A DNA stretch of 64,000 nucleotides from contig NZ_QENZ01000005.1 in assembly GCF_003096835.1 (NCBI RefSeq), positions 124,001 to 188,000 on the forward strand, given 5' to 3'. The notes beneath the pieces are model-generated. The model saw only the letters and a list, made by a program, of their open reading frames with translations. It was not told the origin of the DNA and made no database searches. Position numbers and translations under genes: made by a program. Below are positions 27,309-50,386 of this stretch, piece after piece. This DNA comes from Balneicella halophila. GTDB taxonomy: Bacteria; Bacteroidota; Bacteroidia; Bacteroidales; Balneicellaceae. How positions within the stretch are numbered: the first letter of the stretch is position 1; each line of letters opens with the position of its first letter.

Positions 27309-28181
27309 TTATTTTTCTTCTGTCAATTTATCTTTTGCAATGTCAAGACGTTCTTCCTCTTCTTTAGAGATTTCAGGGTATTCAAGATTCATATCTTCAA
27401 GTGCCTCAATTATAATTTGGCAGGCAGTCATTCGCGTAAACCATTTTTTATCAGCAGGCAAGATATACCAAGGCGCATAATCTTTTGAGGTTTCGTTTAT
27501 AGCATCTTCATAAGCTTTTTGATAATCGTCCCACAATGCACGTTCGTTCATATCTGCAGAAGAAAATTTCCAATTCTTATCGTCTTCATTTATCCTGTCA
27601 AGAAAACGCTCTTTTTGTTCTTCTGGTGAAACGTGCAAAAACAGTTTAATGATTTTAGTGCCATTATTGGCTAAGTGTTTTTCGAAGTTGCGAATGCTCT
27701 GATAGCGATTATTCCAAAATTCTTGATCAAAATCACTTACGTCATCCCAAACCTTTTCATTCAAATTGTATTCCGGATGCACTTTGCATACTAAAACACT
27801 TTCGTAATGGGAGCGATTAAAAATACCAATTTTACCTTTTCGAGGCAATTCCAAATAATGTCTCCACAGAAAATCGTGAGCATAATCATTAGACGTAGGC
27901 GTTTTAAAGCTAGAAACTCTGCATCCTTGAGGATTTACTCCACTCATTACATGCTCTATAAGGCTGTCTTTCCCAGCAGCATCCATAGCTTGCAATACTA
28001 TTAATAGAGATTGACTGCCATCGGCATAGAGTTTTTCCTGCAAATCATACAGGCGTTCTTTTTCAACCACTAGAAGTTTTTTGCCTTCACTCTTAGTGAG
28101 TTCGCCTTTATAAGTGGTTGGAAAATCTTTAAGTTTTATATCCTTTTTTACAAGAAAATCTTTTGAAAAATTAATTTTCAT
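27309..28181 (-). CDS. ppk2: Polyphosphate kinase 2 family protein
   Basis: The 290-residue protein is a single-domain PPK2: a Walker A-like QAMDAAGKDSLIEHVMSGVNPQGC (residues 64-87), lid residues WRHYLELPRKGKIGIFNRSHYESVLV with the Walker B-like segment, and a catalytic region FLHVSPEEQKERFLDR. PPK2 enzymes move phosphate between polyphosphate and nucleoside mono- or diphosphates. The subtype (AMP-, ADP- or both-using) cannot be fixed by eye. Its ATG lies inside the end of hemA (11-bp overlap), so the two are co-translated. It converges on aroA with a 28-bp gap. Confidence 0.93.
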   Translation of the reverse strand: MKINFSKDFLVKKDIKLKDFPTTYKGELTKSEGKKLLVVEKERLYDLQEKLYADGSQSLLIVLQAMDAAGKDSLIEHVMSGVNPQGCRVSSFKTPTSNDYAHDFLWRHYLELPRKGKIGIFNRSHYESVLVCKVHPEYNLNEKVWDDVSDFDQEFWNNRYQSIRNFEKHLANNGTKIIKLFLHVSPEEQKERFLDRINEDDKNWKFSSADMNERALWDDYQKAYEDAINETSKDYAPWYILPADKKWFTRMTACQIIIEALEDMNLEYPEISKEEEERLDIAKDKLTEEK

Positions 28182-29487
28182 GATGTCTGTTTTTATGCTC
28201 TTTTTTCAAGCTGTGAGGATGAATACCAGCTGATTGTTTTGCATAGTCACCAAACATTTTTGAGAGTACTTCTCTGCTTCTTTTTTCGGTTTTAAAAACG
28301 TCTTTAATGTGGGAAATGCTCATTCTAGCTATACGGTTTACAATATTTGATGCAATCAAATCAACTTTTTCGAACTCTTCGTCTGTTAAGTTTGTCCGAT
28401 GGTAAGCCAGCTCTTGTTCTTTCATTTTGTTTAGCCCCATTTGTACACCTTTAAAAATAGGAGAGAGGTGTTGCATTTCAATCCATTCGTGGAGCTCTTC
28501 GCTATTCTGTTTGATGATGTCCTCTGCTAAGGGCACATTTTTAATTCGCAATTCAAGTACCTCGTTATTAACCTGAGACAATTCGTCGATATCAACTAAT
28601 TTTATGTTAGGTAATTTAGAGACATTTGTTGCAACATTTCGTGGTACAGAAAGATCTAAAATAAGTTTTCGTTCCGTATTTCCTTTGAAAAACTCTTTGG
28701 CAACTGTCGGATTTTGAGCACCAGTAGCAACTATGATTACATCTGCTTTCGCGATCTCTTGTGGCAATTCTTTTTCAGATTTGTAAGAAATACTGTATTT
28801 TTCGGCTAAGCTTGCTGCTTTGTCCTCACTGCGATTGACTAAAGTGAGCGTTTTTTTATTCATGTGTCTAACTAAGTTATCACATGTTGTTTTGCCAATT
28901 TCTCCAGTACCATACAGCAGGAAATTCACTTGGTCTAAATCAACTACATTCTCTTTAATATATTGCACAGCAGCATGCGATACAGAAGCTGCTCCATGAC
29001 TTAATTCTGTTTGATTTTTAATCTTTTTACTTGCTTGGAATACATGTGCGAAAATGCGATTGAGCATAGTGTTCACCATTTTCATCTTCTCAGACAGGCG
29101 GTAAGCATTCTTTAGTTGCCCGATAATTTGGAAATCTCCTAAGATTTGTGAATCCAAACCTGCACCAACTCTATATAAATGATTTACAGCTTCGTCTCCA
29201 ACAATATGATAACCGAATTCTTCAAACAGTTTCATAGGACCATTGGAATATTTAACCAACAGTCTCTTTACTAAGTCAATATTATCTGTTTGTGTATATA
29301 CTTCGGTACGATTGCAAGTAGATAGAATAACTACGTTTTCTAACCCGAGAGATTGAGCATCTTTTAAAAAAGCTATTTGCTCATCATTACTTACTGAAAA
29401 AAGTTCTCTGATGTCAACGGGCGTTTGTAAATAACTAACGCCAATAATGTGAAAATTTTTCAATATATCTTGTGTCTTAAATTCCAT
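28171..29487 (-). CDS. hemA: Glutamyl-tRNA reductase
   Basis: HemA reduces glutamyl-tRNA to glutamate-1-semialdehyde, the first committed step of C5 tetrapyrrole synthesis. From ATG 29485-29487 the protein has 438 residues. It shows the N-terminal FHIIGVSYLQTPVDIRELFS, the catalytic cysteine in VILSTCNRTEVY, the substrate loop EILGDFQIIGQLKNAY, the NADPH-binding domain (NFLLYGTGEIGKTTCDNL, LTLVNRSEDKA, IIVATGAQNP, ILDLSVPRNV) and a helical dimerisation tail. A TTG at 29523 extends the frame but would start within a few bases of the predicted transcription start, so the ATG is preferred. Confidence 0.95.
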   Translation of the reverse strand: MEFKTQDILKNFHIIGVSYLQTPVDIRELFSVSNDEQIAFLKDAQSLGLENVVILSTCNRTEVYTQTDNIDLVKRLLVKYSNGPMKLFEEFGYHIVGDEAVNHLYRVGAGLDSQILGDFQIIGQLKNAYRLSEKMKMVNTMLNRIFAHVFQASKKIKNQTELSHGAASVSHAAVQYIKENVVDLDQVNFLLYGTGEIGKTTCDNLVRHMNKKTLTLVNRSEDKAASLAEKYSISYKSEKELPQEIAKADVIIVATGAQNPTVAKEFFKGNTERKLILDLSVPRNVATNVSKLPNIKLVDIDELSQVNNEVLELRIKNVPLAEDIIKQNSEELHEWIEMQHLSPIFKGVQMGLNKMKEQELAYHRTNLTDEEFEKVDLIASNIVNRIARMSISHIKDVFKTEKRSREVLSKMFGDYAKQSAGIHPHSLKKEHKNRHHEN

Positions 29488-29535
29488 AACAACTTTTTCA
29501 ATATCAAACAACCCGTTTTTCAAACTAGGTTTTTA

Positions 29536-39694: not shown

Positions 39695-40727
39695 ATCTCG
39701 TAAGTGCCTGCTTTTGTTGAATGTAGGCACTCCTGATAGTCCTGAAAAATCAGATGTACGCAGATATCTTACGCAGTTTTTGAATGATAAACGCGTGATA
39801 GATTTGCCATGGCTTGGACGTAAAATTTTAGTAAATGGTATTATCATCCCTTTTCGAGTAAATACTTCAGTCAAGATTTATTCAGAGTTGTGGGCAAAGC
39901 ACGGAAGAATTTTAGACACGCTCACTCAACGATTAACGATGAAATTACAAAAACATTTTGAGGGAGACTTGGCGGTGAAATATGCCATGCGTTATGGAAA
40001 TCCTTCTATGGACAAGGCATTTGATGAAATAAAAGAGGAAGGGTATGATGAGCTAATACTCTTTCCTTTATTTCCACAATATGCAATGTCAACCACTCAA
40101 ACATGTTTAGAAGAAGCTCATAGACTGATAAAGAAAAAAGGGGTGAAGCTTAGGACTGAGATTGTACCAAGTTTTTTTAATGATGAACTATTTGTTGAAG
40201 GAATAGCAAAACAGGCAAAAACTCAATTTGATATTGAAGCATATGATCATATCCTATTTTCCTATCACGGTTTGCCAAATAGACATTTGAGAAAGGCTCA
40301 TAAAAATATAGGCTATTCTTCTAATACCATTGAAGGCTGTAGTTGTGAGAAACGGTTAGAGGGCTTCAAAATAGGTTGCTATAAAGCGGAATGTTACGAA
40401 ACCTCAAGGTTGTTAGCAAAAGAGTTAAATATTTCAGAAAAGAATTATACTGTTGCCTTTCAATCACGGTTGAGTAAGGATTGGCTGAAACCTTTTTCCG
40501 ATGTCACTGTCACAGAATTGGCAAAACAAGGAGCAAAAAAAGCACTTGTTTTCACACCTTCTTTTACGATTGATTGCCTCGAAACACTTAATGAGATAGG
40601 CGAGGAGTATGCCGAGGAATTTTACAAGGCGGGAGGGAAGCAACTCGATTTAGTTCCTTGCCTAAATGATAGTGATGAAATGGTGAAATTGGCAGATTCG
40701 TTGCTTAAAAACGTTGTTTCTGAATAA
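39687..40727 (+). CDS. hemH: Ferrochelatase
   Basis: HemH inserts ferrous iron into protoporphyrin IX, the last step of haem b synthesis. From ATG 39687 the protein has 346 residues. It shows the start KCLLLLNVGTPDSPEKSDVRRYLTQFLNDKRV, the segment MRYGNPSM, LFPLFPQYAMSTT and the catalytic histidine in HILFSYHGLPNRHL. The C-terminal acidic face is FTPSFTIDCLETLNEIGEEY. CSCEKRLEGFKIGCYKAECYETSRLL adds a cluster of cysteines, but whether it binds an iron-sulfur cluster cannot be told by eye. The longer frame to 39663 is not preferred. Overlap with clpC suggests linked expression. Confidence 0.95.
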   Translation: MSKSRKCLLLLNVGTPDSPEKSDVRRYLTQFLNDKRVIDLPWLGRKILVNGIIIPFRVNTSVKIYSELWAKHGRILDTLTQRLTMKLQKHFEGDLAVKYAMRYGNPSMDKAFDEIKEEGYDELILFPLFPQYAMSTTQTCLEEAHRLIKKKGVKLRTEIVPSFFNDELFVEGIAKQAKTQFDIEAYDHILFSYHGLPNRHLRKAHKNIGYSSNTIEGCSCEKRLEGFKIGCYKAECYETSRLLAKELNISEKNYTVAFQSRLSKDWLKPFSDVTVTELAKQGAKKALVFTPSFTIDCLETLNEIGEEYAEEFYKAGGKQLDLVPCLNDSDEMVKLADSLLKNVVSE

Positions 40728-40795: not shown

Positions 40796-42091
40796 TTAAT
40801 CAAACTTCATTCTGGCTAAGCTTTCTATAGTTGCGTTGATGATATGGTCCAACTGTTCATAAGACAAAGAATTCGCTAAGAAATAAGATTCATAAGGAGA
40901 AGGTGGCAAATAAACACCTCTGTTCAGCATCGCATGGAAAAACTTGCCAAAGAGTTCACTGTTGTTTTGTGAAGCGGTATCGAAATCAACCACATCTACA
41001 TCTACAAAAAATACATTTATCATTGAACCAATATGGTTGATTCTATAGTCGTAAATGCTTTCAGAGAATACTCGTTCTAATCCTTCTGCTAAATATGTTG
41101 TCTTTTCTGCTAATCCCTCATATATTTGAGGATTTTGATACAATTCTTTGAGCATAGTATAACCGGCTATCATTGCAATAGGATTTCCGGATAGTGTTCC
41201 CGCTTGGTACACTGGACCATCAGGAGAGAGGTAATTCATAATTTCCTCACGACCTCCGAATGCGCCGACAGGCATGCCTCCGCCAATAACTTTACCGTAG
41301 GTAACTAAGTCTGCATTTATTCCAAAATATTCCTGAGCACCACCTTGTGCTAATCGGAACCCTGTCATTACTTCATCAAAAATGAGCAATAATTCATACT
41401 TATCACATAGCTCGCGAATACCTTCCAGAAACCCTTCTTTCGGCAATACACATCCCATATTTCCACAAACAGGCTCTAAGATAATGGCAGCTACTTCGCC
41501 TTTATTCTCTTCCAGTAGTCTTGCAACATCTTCTAAGTCATTATAGCGAGCTGTTAATGTGTCATTTGCAGTTCCTTTAGTAACTCCTGGACTGTTCGGC
41601 ACACCAAAAGTGGAAGCTCCACTACCAGCTTTTATGAGAAAACTGTCGCTGTGCCCATGATAGCAACCGTCAAATTTGATAAATTTATCTCGCCCAGTGT
41701 AGCCTCTTGCTAACCTTATAGCACTCATACAAGCCTCTGTACCAGAATTCACCATACGAATTTTGTCAATATTCGGAGCCATTTTAGTGATAAGCTCAGC
41801 TATCGCAATTTCAATCTCAGTGGGAGCGCCAAAGGAGGTAGAATATTCCACTTTATTGTTAATAGCTTCCGCAATTTTAGGATTCGCATGACCAAGAATC
41901 ATCGGACCCCAAGAAGCGATTAGGTCGATATATTCATTGTCATCTTCGTCAGTTAATATGCTACCTGATGCTTTTTTAATGAATAGGGGAGTCCCTCCAA
42001 CTGATTTAAATGCTCTAACTGGAGAATTCACACCGCTAGGAATCACGTTTCTTGCTCTATTGTATAAATAGGTACTTCGGCTAATGTTCAT
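40796..42091 (-). CDS. hemL: Glutamate-1-semialdehyde 2,1-aminomutase
   Basis: HemL converts glutamate-1-semialdehyde to 5-aminolevulinate with PLP. The 431-residue class-III aminotransferase-fold protein has [49 protein letters not shown], the [37 protein letters not shown] phosphate-binding region, [13 protein letters not shown] with the cofactor aspartate, and the PLP lysine in [19 protein letters not shown]. It works directly after HemA, encoded at 28.2 kb. The gene is the last of a three-gene unit (regulator, hemD, hemL; gaps 14 and 4 bp). Confidence 0.97.
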
Positions 42092-42095
42092 TGTT

Positions 42096-42770
42096 TTAAT
42101 TTTTATAATGTTCTTCTAAATAATTAAGCATACTATCTATTGTTGCTTTCTTGGCAACATGTATTCTGTTTTTGTGACTATTTAATACTTTTGCTGTCGT
42201 ATTGCCTATGCAGAGAATATCCTGATGTGGCAATAGTTCATATTTCGTTAAAAAACTTTCTATTGACGATGGACTGCAAAAGCATAGCCATTGGTAGTTT
42301 TTTGTATCTAAATTTGAAGGAGGAGAGAGGATCGTGTCATAAACCTCAATCACTTGATGCTTTTTTTGATTTGTTTTAAAATAATCTTCTAATTTTGGGA
42401 GTCGTTTCTTCCCACAGAAATAACGAAAATTATTACTGTTATTTTGTTCAAATAATTCAATTAATCCTTCGGCATTATATTGATTATAGGGAACTTGTAT
42501 GTTTTTAAAAGCTGCGTATTCTAACAGTTTGGCTTTGGTAGACTTTCCAACTGCGTAAATTGATTGCGTTGTATTGATTTCATATTGGGAAAGAACAGCA
42601 TCTACAGCATTCTTGCTAGTAAATACGAAATGAGAAGCAGGAGTAGTGGTGGGGAAATGAAAATCCAACATTTCAATAGAAATAAAATCATAGCAATCCA
42701 GAGCAATATTAATACTATTTTTCTGATTATTAGTAATTTTCTTCGTAAACAATACCCTTGATTGTGTCAT
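42096..42770 (-). CDS. hemD: Uroporphyrinogen-III synthase
   Basis: HemD cyclises hydroxymethylbilane to uroporphyrinogen III. The family is poorly conserved in sequence. The call rests on length (224 aa), the bilobal pattern with VLFTKKI at the start and [17 protein letters not shown] ending the first strand-helix set, [15 protein letters not shown], then the second lobe with [15 protein letters not shown] and [29 protein letters not shown] and [10 protein letters not shown], plus its position 4 bp upstream of hemL. hemC, hemB and hemG/N are not in the window. Confidence 0.88.
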
Positions 42771-42784
42771 AATTATCTATAAAA

Positions 42785-43834
42785 TTATAAATAAATTTCA
42801 TGATTCCATAAATAATGTACGGGCAATCGGTAAGAAGAAAACCAAAGTGTGATAGATTGTTTGTTTTTAGGACTTTCAGAAGGGGCTACTTTCTGGATTA
42901 ACATAGGTTTATAACCTATCATTCCACCTCTTTGGACATCACAACTACTTGGAAAAGTATTGTTTGTTATCAATTTAACTTCTAGTGGACTCAATTCTCG
43001 CTGATGAGAGCCGGGGATCACTTGCAATGCACCAGTTTGACAGTTTACATCCTTTAGGAATAATTGGATAATGAATGTTTCTTCAAACAATTTAGGCATA
43101 TCAGGGGTCTCATGTTTTTCTTCTGCAGGATATCCCCAGAGAGTTAAATTCTGAGGAATCCTTCGCTGCCGCATGGGTAAACTTAACTCTTGCTTGAAGT
43201 CAAAAGCTTCTTGATAATCATTATAAACAGCATCAACTAAGAAAGCTCTAGGATTAATTTTTTTTATGAGGTTTTTCAATTTTGTATTCAGCACAGAGTA
43301 CAGTAAAGTTTCGTCTTCTATAAAACTTTGTTTATGAGTAAGTTTATGATATCGAACAAGGTTATTTATCTTTTTGAATTCAGAAGCATTTATGAACGAC
43401 TGACTTGTAAAGAAACCTTCATTGGAAAGTTGCTGCACGCAAAACTTAACATAATCTAATGACTTAGATTTGTCTTTACGGGGTCTAATAGAATGTAATG
43501 TGTCTTTATAATGCTTGTATTTTGGGAAATCACTTATTTCTTTTACAAAGTCGATGCATTCAATGAACTGATCCTCTAGCTTTTGTGGAATCTTATTTTT
43601 TAATATACTATAATTCGGATCTTTGTACGTGTAATATTTTCTATCATTGACGATTACAGGCGCACCGTTATCTCTTAAAAATTGAATATCTGATTGAATT
43701 GACCTTTTACTAATATTTTCATCTAAAATTCTTGAGCAATGTACAATGAGCATCTCTAATGTCCATTTCTTTTTACTACGAAAACATTTATCAAGTGTTT
43801 TATAACGTAAGAGTATTTTATGACCGGGAAGCAT
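42785..43834 (-). CDS. WYL-type HTH fused to a degenerate PhyH-like (2OG oxygenase) domain
   Basis: Residues 8-78 resemble the winged-helix N terminus of Bacteroidota WYL regulators (RYKTLDKCFRS, SKRSIQSDIQFLR, YYTYKDPNYSI). The WYL sensor is missing. Instead residues 135-335 follow a phytanoyl-CoA dioxygenase-like fold: LSNEGFFTSQSFINASEFKKI, IIQLFLKDVNCQTGALQVIPGSHQ and GGMIGYKPMLIQKV...ITLWFSS. Where active members have HxD I see K214-Q-E216 (DFKQELSL); where the distal His is expected I see Gln314. The metal site therefore looks lost and the domain more likely senses than catalyses. It heads the hemD-hemL operon 14 bp upstream of hemD, so control of haem synthesis is inferred. Alignments are by eye. 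Confidence 0.72.
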   Translation of the reverse strand: MLPGHKILLRYKTLDKCFRSKKKWTLEMLIVHCSRILDENISKRSIQSDIQFLRDNGAPVIVNDRKYYTYKDPNYSILKNKIPQKLEDQFIECIDFVKEISDFPKYKHYKDTLHSIRPRKDKSKSLDYVKFCVQQLSNEGFFTSQSFINASEFKKINNLVRYHKLTHKQSFIEDETLLYSVLNTKLKNLIKKINPRAFLVDAVYNDYQEAFDFKQELSLPMRQRRIPQNLTLWGYPAEEKHETPDMPKLFEETFIIQLFLKDVNCQTGALQVIPGSHQRELSPLEVKLITNNTFPSSCDVQRGGMIGYKPMLIQKVAPSESPKNKQSITLWFSSYRLPVHYLWNHEIYL

Positions 43835-43945
43835 AACTGTGCCAATTTTTCCTCTAAATTACGAAATTTATTCCTACTGCGCACTATGAATACATAGAAA
43901 CTAAATTAAGAGCTTACTAATTAGAATATCCCACATTGTGTTTTC

Positions 43946-44008: not shown

Positions 44009-44185
44009 TTAACTTGATCTCTTACTTAGAATTTGCTTTACTTGTGTAGAACAACGTCCGCAACCCATAGCAACAGCTGTTAATTTTTGAATATCTTCCA
44101 AACGAATAGCTCCAGCATTGATTGCTTCGTGCATTTCACCAAGCGTAACTTGAGAGCAATTACAGATTATAGAAACCTTTTGCAT
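44009..44185 (-). CDS. BFD-like [2Fe-2S]-binding protein
   Basis: This is a 58-residue ORF from ATG 44183-44185 to TAA 44009-44011. It carries four cysteines in the BFD pattern: Cys8 and Cys10 (IICNCSQVTLGEMHEAI) and Cys42 and Cys45 (MGCGRCSTQVK), with the helix-turn-helix spacing of bacterioferritin-associated ferredoxin and of the BFD domains in nitrite reductases. BFD mobilises iron from bacterioferritin by electron transfer. No bacterioferritin gene is in the window. It begins 4 bp after the pepD stop and is followed by a terminator, so it is co-transcribed with pepD. It sits beside the haem-synthesis genes, which may be relevant to iron supply. Confidence 0.85.
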   Translation of the reverse strand: MQKVSIICNCSQVTLGEMHEAINAGAIRLEDIQKLTAVAMGCGRCSTQVKQILSKRSS

Positions 44186-45774: not shown

Positions 45775-47724
45775 ATGCCTTATTTAAAATTTGACAAATT
45801 AGAATTAGTAAATTTACAATATTCTACTTCGAAAGAGCTATTACGAACTAACCGTTCTGGATCTTATTCCAATACTACAGTTAGTGGTTGTAATACTCGA
45901 AAATACCATGGGTTGTTGGTAAGTCCTATCGAGGCATTTAACAACTCTATGCACGTGCTTCTCTCCTCTTTAGATATTTCTGTGATTCAACATGAACAAG
46001 AGTTTAATTTGGGATTGCATAAGTATGCTGGAAATCATTATAAGCCTAAGGGACATAAGTATTTGAAAGATTTCAGTGTTGATACTATCCCATTATTTAC
46101 CTTTCGCGTTGGTGGTGTTGTCCTCAGATTAAGTAAAATATTGGTAGAAAAAAATGAACAAGTTTTAGTACGCATAAGTTTAGATAAAGCACATTCGAAA
46201 ACCAAGATACGTCTAAAACCAATGCTTACATTTAGAAACATACACGAGCTTACTAAAGAGAATATGCATGCGAATACGCGAGTGCAACCGACCAACAATG
46301 GTGTTATTGCTAAGCTATATGAGAACTATCCGGAGCTTTATATGCAGACCTCCAAGAAAGGTGAATTTGTCTCTATCCCTTTGTGGTATAAAGATGTTGA
46401 ATACATAGAAGAACAAAAACGTGGCTACGCTTACAAAGAAGATTTGTTTTCACCGGGATATTTTGAATTGCCGATTGAGCCAGGAGAAACAATTTATTTT
46501 TCTGCTTCACTGAAAAAGAAAGTGCCTTCAAAATTTGAGTCATCCTTTGATGAATCTAAAAATAAGAGAGTTGACAGAGGCAGTTTCTTGAAGTGTTTGC
46601 ATAATGCAGCACAACAATTTATTCGTAAAAAAGGCAAAAGTATTGAACTCGTTGCAGGATTTCCTTGGTATGATGTAATCCCTCGTGATACTTTGATAGC
46701 AGCACCTACACTTTTATTTGAAAACAATGACAAAAACAACTACAAAAGTTTAATTAGCAACTTAGTTGATAATCTAGAGCTCGAGACTGGAGAGATATGG
46801 GGCAGTAAGCAAGTAAGTGTAGATGCTCCATTATGGTTGTTCTATTCGCTCTATCAATATGAACAATATAAATCTAAATCTAATATTTGGAAAGATTATC
46901 GGAAAGTAATAAAACAAATACTAACAGCTTACCGAGAAAATCAATTAAAACATATAGAATATCGTGATAATGGACTTTTGTATATAACTAATGAGCAACT
47001 GCCTCTTACTTGGATGAATAGTAATATTAATGGCAGGGCTGTCGTAAAACGACATGGCTATGTGGTGGAAGTTTGCGCACTATGGTACAATGCTATTTTC
47101 ACAGCAATGCAATGGGCAAAGAAAGCAAAGGATGCTAGCTTTATCAGGGAGTGGGCACCAATTGCTCAATTGATTGAAGAGAATTTCAAAAAAACGTTTT
47201 CTGACGAATCACATAGCTACTTAGCAGATTACGTCACGAATGATTATCAAAACTTTGACTTCAGACCCAACCAACTGATAGCTATCGGCCTCCCCTATAC
47301 TCCCTTAGAGAGAGAGGATATTCTTATCATAAAAAGATTGGTAAAACAAGAACTACTTACACCTAAGGGAGTTCGTACTTTGTCACCACAAAATAATATG
47401 TATTCTAAAAGCTATGAGGGGAACCATCTCGAGCGTGAGCAAAAAGCTCATCAAGGTACGGTTTATCCATGGCTATTGTTGTTTTATTGTGAGGCGTATT
47501 TAAAATTGCATTATAGAAGCATTCCCGGTGTCTTGCAAGAGATTATTGATAATTTCGAAGAGGATGTAACTGTTTACGGAATTGGAACGATAAATGAAAT
47601 GTACGATGCAGATCCGCCACAGACACCAAGAGGAGCTATTTCTATGGCAACTTCTGTAGCTGCAATCTTGAGAATTTATCGATTGCGCGAACAGTGGATG
47701 GCTACACACACGATTGAAGAATAA
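45775..47724 (+). CDS. Glycogen debranching enzyme (amylo-alpha-1,6-glucosidase type)
   Basis: The 649-residue protein has the bacterial GDE layout. An N-terminal beta domain includes ELLRTNRSGSYSNTTVSGCNTRKYHGLLVSP. The C-terminal GH133-like (alpha/alpha)6 domain includes ELVAGFPWYDVIPRDTLIAAPTL, SVDAPLWLFYSLYQYEQYK, LPLTWMNSNINGRAVVKRHGYVVEVCALWYNA, FRPNQLIAIGLPYTPL and AHQGTVYPWLLLFYCEAYLK. The PWYDVIPRDT and LTWMN acidic residues are the expected active-site region. It removes alpha-1,6 branches from glycogen. It starts a four-gene glucan cluster; the next gene is 19 bp away. Confidence 0.9.
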   Translation: MPYLKFDKLELVNLQYSTSKELLRTNRSGSYSNTTVSGCNTRKYHGLLVSPIEAFNNSMHVLLSSLDISVIQHEQEFNLGLHKYAGNHYKPKGHKYLKDFSVDTIPLFTFRVGGVVLRLSKILVEKNEQVLVRISLDKAHSKTKIRLKPMLTFRNIHELTKENMHANTRVQPTNNGVIAKLYENYPELYMQTSKKGEFVSIPLWYKDVEYIEEQKRGYAYKEDLFSPGYFELPIEPGETIYFSASLKKKVPSKFESSFDESKNKRVDRGSFLKCLHNAAQQFIRKKGKSIELVAGFPWYDVIPRDTLIAAPTLLFENNDKNNYKSLISNLVDNLELETGEIWGSKQVSVDAPLWLFYSLYQYEQYKSKSNIWKDYRKVIKQILTAYRENQLKHIEYRDNGLLYITNEQLPLTWMNSNINGRAVVKRHGYVVEVCALWYNAIFTAMQWAKKAKDASFIREWAPIAQLIEENFKKTFSDESHSYLADYVTNDYQNFDFRPNQLIAIGLPYTPLEREDILIIKRLVKQELLTPKGVRTLSPQNNMYSKSYEGNHLEREQKAHQGTVYPWLLLFYCEAYLKLHYRSIPGVLQEIIDNFEEDVTVYGIGTINEMYDADPPQTPRGAISMATSVAAILRIYRLREQWMATHTIEE

Positions 47725-47743
47725 AAATAAATAAAAATATCAT

Positions 47744-49030
47744 ATGAAAGTACTAATGTTTGGGTGGGAATTTCCCCCACATATTTCAGGAGGCTTAGGA
47801 ACCGCTTGCTATGGTCTTACTAGAGGGCTATCCACTTTTGAAGATATGGATATACTGTTTGTCGTGCCCAAAACGCACGGAGATGAAGAACCTAAAAGAA
47901 TGGAACTTCTAGGTGCTGAGAATGTTGCTATTGATTTTTCAAAATTAAATACCAATCGCTTTAAGAAGTTGCAGGTCTATTCTCATCTTGTTCCCTATAC
48001 TTCCCCTGATGAATATTATGCCTTTCAAGAACAAAGTGAAGAGAGTCAAATCAAACACATAAAATCCAGGGGGAAGACATTCTTTAATTTCACAGGGAAA
48101 TATGGGAAAAATTTGATGGAAGAAATTTCAGACTATAGCATTGTAGCTTATAACATCGCGCAAGAGCACGACTTTGATATCATCCATTCGCATGACTGGC
48201 TCACCTACCCCGCGGGCATAGTGGCTAAGGAGGCTACTGGAAAACCATTAGTAATTCATGTGCATGCTACAGACTTTGATCGTAGTGGCGGGAATGTGAA
48301 TCCTGATGTATTTAAAATCGAGAAAGACGGCATGGAGGCCGCAGACAGTATTATTACAGTAAGTAACCTAACTAGAGATACCGTTATTCATAAATATGGA
48401 ATATCACCGGAGAAGGTAACTACGGTTTATAATGCTGTAGAACCTTTGAAATTGTCTGATAATATTAAAAAAGAATCTAAGTTAGACGAAAAGATCGTCA
48501 CATTTTTGGGTAGAATAACGCATCAAAAAGGACCTACATACTTTATAGAAGCAGCAAAAAAGGTTTTAGACAAAACAGATAATGTCCGTTTTGTAATGGC
48601 AGGAAGTGGTGATATGATGGAGAAAATGATTCGGCATGCGGCTAGTTTAGGCATAACCGACAAATTCTACTTTACCGGATTTCTAAAAGGTGACGATGTC
48701 TTTAAGATGTTTTATCAAAGTGATGTATATGTGATGCCCTCAGTTTCAGAACCTTTTGGGATTTCTCCCTTAGAAGCTATGCAAACTGATGTTCCTACTA
48801 TTATTTCATATCAATCAGGAGTGGCAGAGGTGGTAAAACATGCTTTAAAAGTGAACTATTGGGATACCGATGCGTTGGCAAACGCTATTTACGGATTGAT
48901 TACTTATCCTTCTATGGCAAAGACATTTAAGGAGTTTGGTCGTAAAGAGGTGGAAAGCCTAAAATGGGAAAATTCTGCGGCAAATGTGAGAGATGTTTAT
49001 TTTAAAACATTAGAAAAAACCAATAACTAA
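47744..49030 (+). CDS. GT4-family glycosyltransferase of the glycogen cluster
   Basis: The 428-residue GT-B protein has the N-terminal glycine-rich loop MFGWEFPPHISGGLGTACYGLTRGL, the donor-side EKVTTVYNAVEP and FLGRITHQKGPTYFIEAAKKVL, and SVSEPFGISPLEAMQTDVPTIIS with the E-x7-E retaining motif. Gene order places it between the debranching enzyme and a GH57 amylase. In Bacteroidota this slot is usually called glycogen synthase-like or alpha-glucan GT4, and a role in glucan elongation or maltosyl transfer is likely but not proven here. It overlaps no neighbour (gaps 19 and 63 bp). Confidence 0.88.
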   Translation: MKVLMFGWEFPPHISGGLGTACYGLTRGLSTFEDMDILFVVPKTHGDEEPKRMELLGAENVAIDFSKLNTNRFKKLQVYSHLVPYTSPDEYYAFQEQSEESQIKHIKSRGKTFFNFTGKYGKNLMEEISDYSIVAYNIAQEHDFDIIHSHDWLTYPAGIVAKEATGKPLVIHVHATDFDRSGGNVNPDVFKIEKDGMEAADSIITVSNLTRDTVIHKYGISPEKVTTVYNAVEPLKLSDNIKKESKLDEKIVTFLGRITHQKGPTYFIEAAKKVLDKTDNVRFVMAGSGDMMEKMIRHAASLGITDKFYFTGFLKGDDVFKMFYQSDVYVMPSVSEPFGISPLEAMQTDVPTIISYQSGVAEVVKHALKVNYWDTDALANAIYGLITYPSMAKTFKEFGRKEVESLKWENSAANVRDVYFKTLEKTNN

Positions 49031-49093
49031 ATAAAGTAACAGACTACATACTTTTGAGAAATGAAGTTAGACTAGTCATAAATTTGTAATTCC

Positions 49094-50386
49094 ATGAAAA
49101 ACATATGTTTATATTTTCAAGTTCATCAACCGTTTCGTTTCAAGAAATATTCTTTCTTCGATATGGGAAAAGAACATTATTACTACGATGATTTTTTGAA
49201 TGAGAGTGTGATGAGAAAAGTAGCTGAGAAATGCTATTTGCCTGCAAATAATCTTTTACTAAAGCTTATTGAACAAAATAAAGGCGAGTTTAAAGTCACA
49301 TTCTCTATATCAGGAACAGCTCTTGATCAATTTGAATTGTATGCCCCTGAAGTACTAGAGAGTTTTCAGAAACTGGCAGAGACTGGTTGTGTTGAGTTTT
49401 TAGCGGAGACCTATTCACACTCGCTAGTATCATTACACAATAAAGATCTTTTCAAAGAGGAAGTTAAAAAGCATACTAAAGCCCTTAAAAACCTGCTGGG
49501 AATAAAAAAACCTAAAGTTTTTAGAAACACAGAGTTGATTTATTCTGATATGCTGGGTAAGGATATTTTTGAAATGGGATTCAAAGGAGTTCTTGCAGAA
49601 GGTGCAAAACATATTCTTGGATGGAAAAGCCCTAACTATATATATTGTAATCCTTTAGAGCCAAAGTTGAAACTCTTGTTGCGAAATTATAATTATAGTG
49701 ATGATATTGCATTCCGATTCTCAGACACCTCGTGGACAGAATACCCACTTACGGCAAAGAAATTTGCATCATGGATTGCTTCAGATGAAAATGAAGAGAG
49801 CCAAATCGTAAATCTATTTATGGATTATGAGACCTTTGGGGAACATCATAATGCAGCTACAGGAATTTTTGATTTTTTAGAACACCTGCCGACAGCAGTT
49901 CTTGAAGAAGAGCTGAAATTCATCACACCTTCTGAAGCTGTCAGTAGTTTAGACACCGTCTCTCCTATGTCTATGCCCTATCCTACCTCATGGGCTGATG
50001 AAGAGCGTGATGTTTCAGCGTGGTTAGGAAACGAGATGCAGAAAGAAGCTTTTGATAAATTGTATCAGCTAGCTCCATTGATAAAGAAGATAGACAATAA
50101 GAAGTTGAAAAGAGATTGGGAATATTTACAGACTAGTGATGCATTTTATTATATGTCAACAAAATGGTTTACTGATGGTGATGTTCACACATACTTTAAT
50201 CCTTACCCATCCGCCTACGATGCGTTTCTGAATTATATGAATATCTTGAGTGATTTCTCACAAGAGGTACATAAGTTGATTTCTCCAAGCAACAAAAAAG
50301 ATGATATCATTGCTGAGTTGAAAGAAGAGTTGAAACATAAAGAGAAGCAACTGAAAGAATATCAAGAAATCATAAAATCATTATAG
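49094..50386 (+). CDS. Glycoside hydrolase family 57 (alpha-amylase / 4-alpha-glucanotransferase type)
   Basis: The 430-residue protein has the GH57 conserved regions: HQPFRF near residue 12, EFLAETYSHSLVSLH, GFKGVLAEGAKHILGW with the likely nucleophile Glu169, and VNLFMDYETFGEHH with the likely acid/base Asp244. A helical bundle and a charged coiled-coil tail (KKDDIIAELKEELKHKEKQLKEYQEI) complete it. The GH57 core is complete, so it should hydrolyse or rearrange alpha-1,4 glucan. Its place in the glycogen cluster and the lack of a signal peptide argue for cytoplasmic action. Confidence 0.9.
   Translation: MKNICLYFQVHQPFRFKKYSFFDMGKEHYYYDDFLNESVMRKVAEKCYLPANNLLLKLIEQNKGEFKVTFSISGTALDQFELYAPEVLESFQKLAETGCVEFLAETYSHSLVSLHNKDLFKEEVKKHTKALKNLLGIKKPKVFRNTELIYSDMLGKDIFEMGFKGVLAEGAKHILGWKSPNYIYCNPLEPKLKLLLRNYNYSDDIAFRFSDTSWTEYPLTAKKFASWIASDENEESQIVNLFMDYETFGEHHNAATGIFDFLEHLPTAVLEEELKFITPSEAVSSLDTVSPMSMPYPTSWADEERDVSAWLGNEMQKEAFDKLYQLAPLIKKIDNKKLKRDWEYLQTSDAFYYMSTKWFTDGDVHTYFNPYPSAYDAFLNYMNILSDFSQEVHKLISPSNKKDDIIAELKEELKHKEKQLKEYQEIIKSL

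Follow-up and report, generated by a model that had tools for sequence, protein, structure and literature searches.

Organization of the locus

The window, by which we mean the whole 64,000-nucleotide stretch of the Balneicella halophila genome analysed here, carries on its minus strand a gene for a 349-residue protein that lies directly ahead of two genes of haem synthesis. The reading frame, coordinates and strand given in the earlier note, which was made from the sequence alone, are correct. The gene and its surroundings consist of the following elements.

42785..43834, minus strand: HTH-PhyH protein, 349 aa, apparent derivative of the HTH-WYL-PhyH regulator family, without WYL domain and without active site
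43610..43834, minus strand: winged helix-turn-helix (wHTH), residues 1-75 (32-40% identity to the HTHs of HTH-WYL-PhyH fusions; wHTH in the AlphaFold2 model)
43670..43708, minus strand: recognition helix, residues 43-55, KRSIQSDIQFLRD (helix in the model and alignment with 14 fusions)
43463..43609, minus strand: remnant linker, residues 76-124, with the WYL and WCX domains missing (alignment and model pLDDT)
42788..43462, minus strand: PhyH-fold domain, residues 125-349, without Fe/2-oxoglutarate ligands (alignment, model and fold comparison)
42096..42770, minus strand: hemD, uroporphyrinogen-III synthase (PF02602, E 2.7e-27), 14 bp downstream of the regulator gene
40796..42091, minus strand: hemL, glutamate-1-semialdehyde aminomutase (TIGR00713, above cut-off), 4 bp after hemD

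The proposal that the gene leads hemD and hemL is borne out by the two short gaps and by the profile matches of both hem genes; the operon of the pair with the regulator is read from spacing alone. Spacings of 14 and 4 bp are too short to hold a terminator, so that autoregulation would extend to hemD and hemL. An assembly or frameshift chimera is unlikely, given a single ORF with no internal stop inside a 386-kb contig.

In relatives from the same order, hemL lies in haem clusters of different gene order, beside other haem genes, and no such regulator was found in these hemL clusters. Elsewhere in the window, hemA (glutamyl-tRNA reductase; 28171-29523, minus strand) is separated from hemH by about 10 kb and does not adjoin the hemD-hemL pair. 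Another iron-related gene near the haem genes encodes a 58-residue Bfd-like [2Fe-2S] protein (44012-44185, minus strand; Fer2_BFD, E 1.6e-12) and is flanked by a peptidase M20 gene on one side and by the regulator gene, on the same strand, on the other. A cluster of amylo-glucosidase, glycosyltransferase and GH57-like genes (45775-50386) lies 2 kb from the regulator gene. A plain WYL regulator of another member of the order (locus L162, genome G004) adjoins the same glucosidase-type cluster, which may be coincidence.

Structure of the window protein

The AlphaFold2 model of the window protein has a mean pLDDT of 82.6 and comprises a confident three-helix winged HTH (residues 3-70) and a PhyH fold (residues 125-349), joined by a linker that is disordered at residues 103-123 (pLDDT < 50). 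Pfam returned a weak HTH_11 match and a PhyH match confined to residues 251-290 (E 3.7e-4; 21.3 bits, the cut-off being 22), and found no WYL domain (PF13280), as the earlier note had stated. The WYL-type character that it assigned to the N-terminal HTH is upheld by sequence as well as by the model: residues 1-118 share about 23-37% identity with the N-terminal part of WYL regulators of about 340 aa from the window genome's own order. Within and just before the recognition helix, S42, R44, Q47, D49, Q51 and R54 are invariant between the window protein and 14 fusions. In the alignment, residues 107-124 of the window protein correspond to residues 118-322 of the fusions, a gap that spans the WYL and WCX domains.

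A PDB sequence search found no match for the window protein or for the HTH profile, and fold comparisons were used for this reason. The PhyH-fold part matches SnoN, proline hydroxylase H11, GriE, human PHYH and PHYHD1 with Z scores of 18-20, in keeping with the PhyH-like body that had been proposed while the Pfam score falls just below the cut-off. The HTH part alone matches TM1602/NiaR, BirA-type and PafBC wHTHs with Z scores of 8.0-9.7; the CapW and BrxR chains are not among the 50 HTH fold matches listed, which is no evidence against kinship. PHROGs and PADLOC gave no match for the window protein. Independent support from sequence and fold rules out a chance match to HTH or PhyH.

The PhyH domain differs from its relatives at the positions that would form the active site.

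43187..43195, minus strand: K214-Q-E216 replacing H-Q-D (H/Q/D in 80/80 relatives)
42893..42895, minus strand: Q314 replacing the distal metal-ligand His (aligned columns)
42860..42862, minus strand: K325 replacing the presumed 2-oxoglutarate-binding Arg (R in 80/80 relatives)

The columns of K214, E216, Q314 and K325 read H, D, H and R in all 52 fusions and all 28 stand-alone PhyH proteins compared. The loss of the three metal ligands is thus exactly as first read, and the loss extends further than was then seen: R325, R326, H329 and E331 are replaced in the window protein by K, Q, T and W. Two further small deletions are present in the domain. As judged from these substitutions, the PhyH domain is predicted to be enzymatically dead.

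A family of HTH-WYL-PhyH regulators beside RNA-repair genes

The closest relatives of the window protein are HTH-WYL-PhyH fusions of about 575 aa, which are widespread in Bacteroidota. When the C-terminal part was searched in 395 genomes of the phylum, the matches comprised stand-alone PhyH proteins of about 240 aa and, as the best match, a 577-residue HTH-WYL-PhyH protein (L020, P0002); fusions occur in 13 of 349 genomes of the family to which the latter belongs. A scan of named genomes yielded 80 loci, 52 with fusions and 28 with stand-alone PhyH, drawn from Flavobacteriaceae, Crocinitomicaceae, Chitinophagaceae, Flammeovirgaceae, Cyclobacteriaceae, Hymenobacteraceae and others. In two fusions examined, WYL, WCX and PhyH all score above the Pfam cut-off. 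The view that this architecture had no precedent is not supported as it stood, the nearest relatives being HTH-WYL-PhyH regulators with an intact His/Asp/His site. WYL domains are known in fusions with several enzymes (PMC4012209). Within the literature covered, we found no paper that links a WYL domain to phytanoyl, nor any relevant one on phytanoyl-CoA dioxygenase in an HTH fusion; to that extent, the HTH-WYL-PhyH family is apparently undescribed.

Most of the fusion genes are accompanied by RNA-repair genes. RtcB lies beside 43 of the 52, on the opposite strand and mostly upstream, and at least one RNA-repair gene is present in 46 of the 52 loci. Further neighbours among these 52 loci are slipin (26), PrfH (10), an RlaP-type nucleotidyltransferase (9), TROVE/Ro60 (5), RNA ligase (5) and PNK-HD (4). 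In the order of the window genome, plain WYL relatives (G028, G026 and G024) are likewise neighbours of RtcB. In the window genome itself, a single 98%-complete assembly, neither RtcB nor any WYL protein was found.

None of the 80 loci contains hemD, hemL or hemH, which rules out a haem linkage conserved across the family. The homologues with an intact triad are unlinked to haem genes, one of the outcomes that the earlier note had named as refuting its proposal, so that haem control by the window protein could only be a local repurposing. The earlier note had proposed that an oxygenase fold was turned into a ligand-sensing domain; a sensor of haem or 2-oxoglutarate made from scratch finds no support, the relatives being regulators that already carry an intact PhyH domain.

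Two loci depart from the general pattern. In Chryseosolibacter (L094:7962-8696), a stand-alone PhyH protein that is nested among the fusion PhyH domains lies in an RtcB-slipin island; no WYL gene was found adjoining it, and the oxygenase may work alone in RNA repair. In Sporocytophaga (L108:6824-8558), HTH-WYL and PhyH occupy two overlapping frames, either because the gene is split or because of a frameshift in the sequencing.

The family operator and its putative copy upstream of the window gene

An inverted repeat, ACTRCGCA-N7-TGCGYAGT, is common to the upstream regions of the fusions. A strong copy lies within 160 nt upstream in 37 of 51 fusions, almost always 26-40 nt before the start, and at least one copy is present in 49 of the 52 fusion loci, where it is also seen upstream of RtcB, RlaP and TROVE genes. 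The stand-alone PhyH loci are without the operator, the exceptions being L141 and two loci in RNA-repair islands, L094 and L108. The operator is present, too, at two plain WYL-RtcB pairs (L159 and L160). In L080, L082, L088, L127, L148 and other fusion loci, one operator recurs across several promoters of islands that include RtcB, slipin, Ro60/TROVE, PrfH, RlaP, RNA ligase and PNK-HD, which suggests that RNA-repair islands with the common operator form a regulon.

A putative copy of this operator precedes the window gene.

43876..43898, no strand assigned: putative retained operator ACTGCGCA-CTATGAA-TACATAGA, 41 nt upstream of the ATG

The site has the 7-nt spacer of the family, one good and one degenerate half-site, and a PWM score of 9.9; it was not among the sites used in building the matrix, which score 16-33. 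Only two sites scoring as high were found in the 718 kb of stretches from the rest of the same genome that served as background, and the chance of so good a site in a 16-nt slot is roughly 5e-5. In a whole-genome pattern search, the window site was the only match without mismatch, a descriptive result, as the pattern had been loosened to admit it. Since the site lies close to the family position (41 nt upstream, against 26-40 nt in most fusions) and the recognition-helix residues are invariant, the window protein likely still binds its own promoter.

A proposed route to control of hemD and hemL

We postulate, with moderate confidence, that the window protein descends from an RNA-repair regulator, has lost both the WYL domain and enzyme activity, still regulates its own promoter and so controls hemD and hemL directly downstream. 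Its ancestor would have been a regulator of the HTH-WYL-PhyH type from the RNA-repair (RtcB) islands of Bacteroidota, which had its WYL/WCX sensor part deleted in frame and all residues of PhyH that bind iron or 2-oxoglutarate replaced. RtcB would have been lost from the genome, as its absence from one 98%-complete assembly indicates, while the wHTH persisted together with part of its operator. The present protein would dimerise through the domains that remain, with the dead PhyH domain perhaps acting as a dimerisation or ligand module. It would most likely repress, and less likely activate, its own promoter, and read-through would set the expression of hemD and hemL. Control of haem synthesis by the window protein is plausible on this basis. 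Of the haem control first put forward, an ancestral role does not hold, whereas a local repurposing is to some extent favoured by the putative operator upstream of the gene and by two further operator-like sites in hem genes.

42550..42572, no strand assigned: operator-like site inside hemD, PWM 19.6 (matrix scan)
39755..39777, no strand assigned: operator-like site within hemH, towards its 5' end, PWM 15.9 (matrix scan)

The own-promoter, hemD and hemH sites lie within 4.1 kb of one another, compared with the two equally good sites in 718 kb. The 64-kb window holds six sites of PWM 9.9 or above, where 0.18 would be expected from the genome background. It also contains seven of the genome's 13 matches to a loose operator core (1098, 3289, 12146, 30756, 39755, 42550 and 43876), with 0.31 expected and one match for a control pattern, although the patterns of the whole-genome and loose-core searches were partly chosen after the window site was seen. 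Most of the seven lie inside coding sequence, those at 1098, 3289, 12146 and 30756 mostly in unrelated genes, and the hemH site overlies a conserved ferrochelatase motif. Because the hemD and hemH sites are within coding sequence and some of the other sites fall in unrelated genes, we regard the two as suggestive only.

These sites lend some weight to a broader reading, in which the dead PhyH domain takes 2-oxoglutarate, succinate, a porphyrin or another acid as its ligand and, in response to this ligand, the protein controls hemD and hemL and, through the hemD and hemH sites, ferrochelatase as well. A former Fe(II)/2-oxoglutarate oxygenase would then serve as the sensor, and an RNA-repair switch stripped of WYL and of activity would have been rewired to haem through the three sites. 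The position of the gene at the head of the hemD-hemL pair, the local excess of sites and a lysine at 325 that could still hold a carboxylate are all consistent with it. Every ligand residue of the pocket is changed, however, the relatives are tied to RNA repair and not to haem, and the two sites in hem genes may be chance; we consider both the sensing and this wider rewiring unlikely.

Descent of the window protein

The autoregulating descendant that we favour presupposes a protein that still functions. The alternative is a relic drifting without function since the loss of RtcB, its place before hemD and hemL being an accident that supplies a promoter and nothing else. The absence of RtcB and WYL genes from the genome, the domain deletion, the two small PhyH deletions, the total loss of the active site and the half-degenerate operator would all suit such decay, as would the very long branches and the lack of kin among 374 order genomes. 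Against it, all 349 codons remain open with every gap in frame, the recognition helix and wing are conserved, the PhyH fold is still confidently predicted over most of its length, and a putative operator is kept close to the family position. A decaying relic is rather improbable in our estimation, somewhat more so than the sensor reading.

With regard to ancestry, the window protein sits on a very long branch of the PhyH tree (8.8 changes per column), and a tree with it held beside the stand-alone PhyH proteins is not rejected (AU p 0.58). Because the long branch left the placement in the tree undecided, profile scores and diagnostic columns were used. The window PhyH domain scores 88.6 bits against the fusion profile and 70.1 against the stand-alone profile, a difference of 18.5, and 12 of 13 informative diagnostic columns, among them those of the loop GSHxxxLxxxEIKLI, are of the fusion type, with one of the stand-alone type. 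The HTH half, independently, scores highest against the fusion HTHs, and the putative operator upstream of the gene is of the same family's type. A separate joining of a wHTH to a stand-alone PhyH protein, outside HTH-WYL-PhyH descent, would agree with the unrejected tree but is contradicted by all of these features, and we think it very improbable. On sequence grounds, loss of WYL/WCX from a fusion ancestor appears to be the simplest history.

A scan of the genome contigs with the window protein alone found no relatives, and its C-terminal part, searched against 393 genomes of the order, was found only in its own. Among 374 order genomes sampled, this kind of PhyH occurs only in the window genome, the one other weak match (E 6.8e-4) lying within a 759-residue frame, and no second genome with the short HTH-PhyH form was found. 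As only one genome of the order has this kind of PhyH, acquisition of the gene by transfer is possible. That the protein is an active oxygenase with a different site is hardly credible: the PhyH fold is intact in the model, but the positions of H214, D216, H314, R325, R326, H329 and E331, invariant or nearly so in the 80 relatives, are all replaced.

Comparison with known systems

The nearest relatives of both halves of the window protein are the HTH-WYL-PhyH regulators, such as L020/P0002 and that of Ohtaekwangia koreensis (L082), with which it shares the N-terminal wHTH, the C-terminal PhyH and, putatively, the operator. These regulators keep WYL, WCX and the Fe/2-oxoglutarate site and adjoin RNA-repair genes, whereas the window protein lacks both WYL/WCX and the site and has haem genes as its neighbours. 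The PhyH-family Fe(II)/2-oxoglutarate dioxygenases human PHYH, SnoN and GriE have the same fold; unlike them, the window protein is without metal ligands and the 2-oxoglutarate arginine, and is joined to a wHTH. BirA likewise consists of a wHTH fused to an enzyme fold and is a regulator whose enzyme domain senses, but its fold is a different one and it is active as a ligase.

CapW belongs to the WYL family; as a homodimer it represses bidirectionally, its site being a palindrome of about 20 bp that overlaps the -10 element (PMC9122588). On this precedent, the window protein would be expected to act likewise, but without a WYL sensor. Like the window protein, CapW and BrxR are built on a wHTH and have an operator palindrome of about 20 bp near the promoter (PMC9122588), which for the window protein is putative. 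Their targets are CBASS or BREX, and where they carry WYL and WCX domains, a PhyH fold is found in the window protein. RtcR, which regulates the rtcBA RNA-repair operon, is the functional counterpart of the likely role of the parent family in RtcB control, yet it is a sigma-54 activator with a CARF domain and is unrelated in architecture to HTH-WYL-PhyH.

As a whole, the locus exposes a widespread Bacteroidota regulator family that combines a wHTH-WYL part with a seemingly active 2-oxoglutarate oxygenase domain and has a defined operator over RtcB islands, so that it offers a counterpart of RtcR that is open to direct test. The window protein itself would be a natural experiment in rewiring, with the sensor deleted, the enzyme killed and the DNA-reading part kept, while genes of haem synthesis took the place of RNA-repair genes as its neighbours.
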